A stretch of 60,517 nt of DNA from Devosia insulae DS-56 (lineage in GTDB: Bacteria > Pseudomonadota > Alphaproteobacteria > Rhizobiales > Devosiaceae): positions 1 through 60,517 of the forward strand of contig NZ_LAJE02000161.1 of assembly GCF_000970465.2 (NCBI RefSeq), in the 5' to 3' direction. Within the stretch, counting starts at the first letter, position 1; each line of letters begins with the position of its first letter. The notes below the pieces were generated by a model, which made no database searches, had not been told where the DNA came from, and saw nothing but the letters and a program-made list of their open reading frames with translations. This document shows, one piece after another, positions 32,684-60,517 of this stretch. The position numbers were made by a program, and so were the translations under genes.

Positions 32684-32775
32684 CCACCGGGTCATTCCCG
32701 CGAAAGCGGGAACCTCTGTTTCCATCCGCACCACCGCAAACGGAGGTCCCCGCTTTCGCGGGGATGACCCGGTGG
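32684..32775. repeat. dispersed palindromic repeat, copy 1
   Basis: Perfect outer arms CCACCGGGTCAT (32684-32695) and ATGACCCGGTGG (32764-32775) enclose two small hairpins, TTCCCGCGAAAGCGGGAA and TCCCCGCTTTCGCGGGGA. The 34-base block at 32735-32768 recurs at 59773-59806 with paired changes in the stem. It lies between convergent genes. Confidence 0.8.
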
Positions 32776-59658: not shown

Positions 59659-59806
59659 TTCCCTGCGAAAACAGGGATCCATCTCGCCGCCCGCGCCTGC
59701 TGATGCTTGGGTCCCTGCTTTCGCGGGGATGACAGCTGAGTGTGTCGCGGCGGCTCGGACCTTCCGCCGCATCGCAAACGGAGATTCCCGCTTTCGCGGG
59801 AACGAC
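59659..59806. repeat. dispersed palindromic repeat, copies 2 and 3
   Basis: One palindromic unit runs from CCCTGCGAAAACAGGGAT (59660) to CGCGGGGATGACAG (near 59733). A second half-unit at 59773-59806 (CGCAAACGGAGATTCCCGC and its hairpin partner) is about 30/34 identical to 32735-32768. Some differences are paired across the stem, so the hairpin is preserved. It lies between purF and the SDR gene. Confidence 0.75.
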
Positions 59807-59850
59807 ACCGTGGGTAGAAGCAGCCAGCGTTTTCAACGGAAACCTCACGC

Positions 59851-60374
59851 ATGACCACCAACTCGCTTGCCGGCAAGATCGTCCTCGTGACCGGCGCATC
59901 GCGCGGCATCGGTTATCAGGCGGCGCTCGAGGCGGGGCGGCGCGGGGCGCATGTGATTGCGGTGGCCCGCACCATCGGTGGGCTCGAAGAGCTCGATGAC
60001 GAGATCCAGAAAGCCGGCGGCAGCACGACGCTGGTGCCGATGGACCTCAGCGATTTCGATGGCATCGACCGGCTCGGGCTGGCGATCTTCGAGCGTTGGG
60101 GGCACCTCGATGGGTTCGTCGCCAATGCGGCGATGCTGAGCGAGTTGCGCCCGCTGGCGCATGTCGAGCCCAGGGAGTTCGACAAAATGATGGGTCTCAA
60201 CGTCACCGCCAATTACCGGCTGATCCGCTCGCTCGACCTGCTGCTGCGCCAGTCGGTGGCGGGTCGCGTGGTGATCGTCTCCTCGTCGTCAGCGCGCTCG
60301 GCGCGGGCCAACTGGGGCCCGTATGCAGCGAGCAAGGCGGCAGTCGAGGCGCTGGCCAAAAGCTATGCGGCCGA
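59851..60374 (+). CDS. short-chain dehydrogenase, cut off by the contig end
   Basis: This SDR has VTGASRGIGYQAALEAGRRG, VANAAMLSELRPLAH and the active-site region VSSSSARSARANWGPYAASKAA (Ser, Tyr-x3-Lys; written in part). Genuine sequence runs to about residue 174 (LAKSYAAD), whereas SDRs normally reach ~240-250. The frame continues to 60468, but those residues (YTHVRAHATGG onwards) come from sequencing adapter. It is therefore a 3'-partial gene, not a short protein. SDR after purF is common in related genomes. Confidence 0.88.
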
Positions 60375-60517
60375 TGTCTCTTATACCCATGTCCGAGCCC
60401 ACGCGACAGGCGGAAAGCTCGTATGCCTGCCTCTGCTTGTAAAGAGTAAAAGAGACTCAAGAGTGTGAGTCTTCCTGTCGTAACAGTGTGGGGTTGAACT
60501 ACGTGCTGGGACTTAAA
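60375..60517. other. Illumina Nextera adapter and read-tail artefact
   Basis: TGTCTCTTATAC (60375-60386), TCCGAGCCCACG (60392-60403), an index-like stretch near 60408-60416, CTCGTATGCC (60418-60427) and TGCTTG (60434-60439) follow the order of the Nextera read-2 adapter, i7 index and P7 end, with a few base errors. What follows (60440-60517) is A-rich, lower-GC sequence unlike the rest and is probably low-quality read tail. It is not genomic DNA. Confidence 0.9.

Follow-up and report, generated by a model that had tools for sequence, protein, structure and literature searches.

An Illumina Nextera adapter at the 3′ end of a Devosia insulae contig and the false C-terminus of its SDR gene

Introduction

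Where a contig ends inside a gene, the last codons may come from the organism or from the library that was sequenced. We faced this question in a stretch of 60,517 nucleotides from Devosia insulae DS-56 (the window), which is contig C161 (NZ_LAJE02000161.1) of a 5,750,119-base assembly in 410 contigs (G000). An SDR gene runs into the last 144 bases, and an earlier note, made from the letters alone, had read this end as the Nextera read-2 adapter and P7 end assembled onto the contig. We consider it virtually certain that the contig end is an Illumina Nextera library adapter. Artefacts of this kind are ordinary and well known in assemblies, and the contig end contains no biological feature.

Results

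Scanning the whole window with the Nextera read-2 adapter, index and P7 end, we found the best ungapped placement to start at 60374, with 57 of 66 bases matching (50 of 58 outside the index, 7 of 8 within it). Of the 58 non-index bases, the runner-up placement matches 30 on the + strand and 29 on the − strand, in keeping with the identity that the earlier note had assigned. The adapter blocks it had listed are all present in the right order and with the right spacing (Table 1); its range of 60375–60517 is correct as to the adapter and starts one base late. Two points count against a perfect fit. The window deviates from the adapter at nine of the 66 bases, and the adapter begins with C, whereas 60374 is A in the window and in four relatives, so that the junction would be placed only to within one base.

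Table 1. Coordinates of the genuine and artefactual features at the contig end.
Feature	Position	Strand	Basis
SDR gene, genuine 5′ part, codons 1 to about 174	59851..60374	+	Pfam, 98% protein identity
SDR ORF, artefactual 3′ part, residues 176–205 and stop	60376..60468	+	ORF, homology loss, adapter DNA
Nextera mosaic end and read-2 adapter	60374..60407	+	Ungapped match, 4 mismatches in 34
i7 index	60408..60415	+	AGGCGGAA versus N703 AGGCAGAA, 7/8
Illumina P7 flow-cell end	60416..60439	+	4 mismatches in 24, directly behind the index
A-rich stretch followed by probable noise, from reading beyond the library molecule	60440..60517	+	78 bases, GC 0.44

As reference we used the Nextera read-2/P7 sequence, whose letters agree with the forms printed in papers. 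PMC6460022 includes the 34-base read-2 form in its list of trimming parameters, and PMC4730607 prints an oligo with identical letters, the underlined parts of which are stated to be Nextera adapter. The AD2.3 oligo, printed in PMC9605692, covers the P7 end in its reverse complement, which matches 45 of 53 bases at 60387–60439. What the earlier note had called an index-sized gap is the catalogued index N703 but for one base, reading AGGCGGAA where N703 is AGGCAGAA; the latter is given for N703-A in PMC7589761 and for Ad2.3 in PMC11584177.

We then considered the gene that meets this adapter. The SDR ORF occupies 59851–60468, and its codon 175 (60373–60375) straddles the junction. Residues 1–174 share 98% protein identity with a same-genus genome (G011). 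At the DNA level, four relatives agree with the window at 28–32 of the 34 bases leading up to the junction and at 4–6 of the 26 that follow it. For an alignment of the C-terminus we took 23 loci (L056–L078), from which a motif filter excluded L065, L070, L075, L076 and L078; all 18 aligned relatives carry a common C-terminus, about 70 residues long in G011, that is absent from the window SDR. The chance of a real divergent C-terminus, produced by a frameshift or a lineage-specific extension, is practically nil. The ORF does stay open for 30 residues beyond the junction, and its match to Pfam adh_short (PF00106, E 5.2e-39, residues 9–185 of the whole ORF) extends about 10 residues past that point, but DNA homology ends abruptly at the junction, the usual C-terminus is kept in every aligned relative and the DNA at this place is adapter. 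On these three grounds we ruled this candidate out. The earlier note's claims that the apparent C-terminus of about 30 residues is artefactual and that the 3′ end of the record misleads were borne out, residues 176–205 being encoded by adapter and tail.

The adapter is not confined to this contig. Its 19-base core, allowing up to three mismatches, occurs at 59 places on 57 of the 410 contigs of the assembly, and the backwards pattern, used as a control, gave no match there. Every one of the 59 copies faces outwards, and none is more than 243 bases from a contig end (median distance 71); the outward-facing last 250 bases make up 1.8% of strand positions in the assembly. An error-tolerant search was needed, as just 4 of the 59 copies are exact. 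The figure of 57 contigs is a lower bound, since more show up in gapped searches alone; these scored 40 of 50 and 40 of 58 first-look candidates, and a further search of the assembly scored 40 of 113. The substitutions vary from copy to copy. Among 14 ends compared, the commonest of 164 were T to G (38), T to C (29) and A to C (27), a pattern that would resemble low-quality read ends rather than copies of one element. The assembly-wide pattern settles the adapter origin.

The 19-base core of the adapter is the engineered Tn5 mosaic end, and the core is present at 60374–60392 with three mismatches. That much would be accounted for if the SDR gene had been interrupted by the end of a natural Tn5-type transposon. 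The match, however, continues into the primer site of read 2, the 8 bases of a library index and P7, which are parts of library oligos, and the 59 assembly copies without exception face outwards at contig ends, leaving the transposon with next to no chance of being correct. A natural Tn5/IS50 end was accordingly rejected as a candidate: no transposon sequence lies inward of the mosaic end, and the read-2 site, index and P7 are found instead.

The copies at other contig ends share their indices with the window. For the i7 side we took the best 14 of 40 gapped-search matches (40 of 50 candidates scored), the window's end included; the column consensus is AGGCAGAA, supported by 11 to 13 of the 14 ends in each column. 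Six of the 14 ends carry AGGCAGAA exactly, and the errors in the others vary from end to end, although the index fits poorly at contigs C88 (4 of 8) and C102 (5 of 8). On the i5 side, 18 ends were inspected and two were left out as too short. The remaining 16 give the consensus GCGATCTA, which is S501, with two exact copies. Its fifth base is weakly supported (T at 6, C at 4 and A at 4 of 16 ends), and L098, one of these 16 ends, agrees with the i5 adapter at just 29 of 62 bases. In PMC9605692, the AD1.1 oligo carries an index whose reverse complement is GCGATCTA.

Behind P7, the last 78 bases of the window contain no adapter. They open with TAAAGAGTAAAAG and then look like noise, with a GC content of 0.44 where the window as a whole has 0.653, and they match nothing in the window besides themselves at E ≤ 0.1. 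The window tail is A-rich at its start, directly behind P7, and lacks a clean poly-A run. Among 14 adapter tails inspected, five open with at least nine A (one of these after a G), two more with five A, and one is nearly all C; the remainder, the window's included, open otherwise. We regard these 78 bases as probable sequencing noise.

Searching plasmid and phage records with the 144-base end, we found the adapter part alone in 34 records, 5 from plasmids and 29 from phages. The earlier note had held that its reading would be contradicted if an independent genome contained this sequence; the adapter part does recur in these 34 records, but in none of them does a single place span 80% of the 144 bases. 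No match in the five plasmid records, or in the 10 phage records listed of 29, extends beyond query base 81. Three of the 34 records were inspected, and all are adapter, matching 45, 58 and 55 of 58 bases without gaps before poly-A, with the indices AGGCAGAA, CGAGGCTG and TAAGGCGA, respectively. We read adapter, index and poly-A in these three as contamination of the records themselves.

These records bear on the possibility of an adapter-bridged chimaera, in which 60440–60517 would stem from some other DNA that had become attached to the adapter. The lack of a clean poly-A run in the tail is compatible with such a join. We nonetheless judge it very unlikely, given that the tail has no second match in the window, that the plasmid and listed phage matches stop within or just behind the adapter, and that adapter followed by A-runs or mixed letters also stands at the ends of other contigs in this assembly. 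Noise behind a library adapter remains our preferred account of the tail.

In the phage record MK327946.1 (L194), one of the three inspected, positions 76682–76758 hold a complete Nextera adapter, with 58 of 58 bases outside the index, and poly-A. This stretch overlaps CDS 76072–76752 and lies just before CDS 76768–77976; both are annotated as putative baseplate hub subunit and tail lysozyme, suggesting that a single gene may have been split by adapter contamination. Two plasmid records labelled complete, NZ_LC520282.1 (L193, 47652–47730) and AP021851.1 (L195, 188584–188660), each contain adapter, index and poly-A overlapping a hypothetical protein.

We also searched for the core in 40 further genomes, drawn from the same genus, family and order. 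Thirty-six had no match, three had one each, and one (G039) had 14. The backwards control gave four matches across the same 40 genomes, which puts the three single-match genomes at chance level. In G039, an order-level relative, the copies (e.g., C81:4–22 and C21:8282–8300) are exact in 13 of 14 cases; eight are on the − strand, all within 25 bases of a contig start, and six on the + strand. This is probably a second genome with adapter remaining at its contig ends.

If the adapter replaces the end of the SDR gene, the true 3′ end might be expected elsewhere in the assembly. A 210-base query for it did not find it in G000, where the 40 candidates scored of 87 gave short pieces with a best E of 0.023. 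We also used a 1,361-base stretch of G011 as query: among the best 40 of 383 candidates scored, bases 1–66 match the window contig, bases of about 295–382 fall on a dispersed repeat present in many contigs, and bases 417–1353 match contig C174 from its base 89. Judging from these matches, about 260–350 bases with the SDR gene end, perhaps including a copy of the repeat as in G011, seem to have been left unassembled, and the dispersed repeat is a plausible cause of the contig break.

This repeat, of about 85 bases, is also found within the window at 32685–32774 and 59769–59812 and on many other contigs of the assembly; it matches on both strands, like a palindrome. At the opposite end of the window, bases 1–15 (CCTCAAGGGGGAGGG) recur near the start of C174 (L093, 1–40), and this second repeat may likewise mark contig breaks.

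Discussion

The adapter identity, its common index and its recurrence at many contig ends were observed directly, and from them we infer a likely course by way of untrimmed reads. A short-insert library molecule would have ended at about 60374, and a read would have crossed the insert, continued into read-2 adapter, N703 index and P7, and finally run off the molecule into noise. That read would have escaped trimming, and the assembler would have retained its low-quality tail as the end of the contig.

The relevance of this finding is limited to data hygiene. The last 144 bases of the window should be excluded from analysis, the SDR protein should be treated as truncated after about residue 174, and at least 57 of the 410 contigs of the same assembly need equal care. 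There is perhaps an even chance of a wider significance, namely a systematic artefact that affects at least 57 of 410 contigs of a species-representative Devosia assembly, with 14 copies in G039, that may seed false C-termini in protein databases, and whose index pair, N703 and S501, could be used to trace libraries.

A table note in PMC10898089 counts adaptors among the contaminants commonly met in submitted assemblies. The contig end described here corresponds to read-through into Nextera read-2, N703 and P7, with the same order, spacing and index and with an A-rich start behind. It departs from the Nextera adapter by nine substitutions in 66 bases, as would be expected of a low-quality read end. 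Compared with the adapter contamination that NCBI screens for, the adapters in this assembly are error-rich, which may be the reason that screening missed them.
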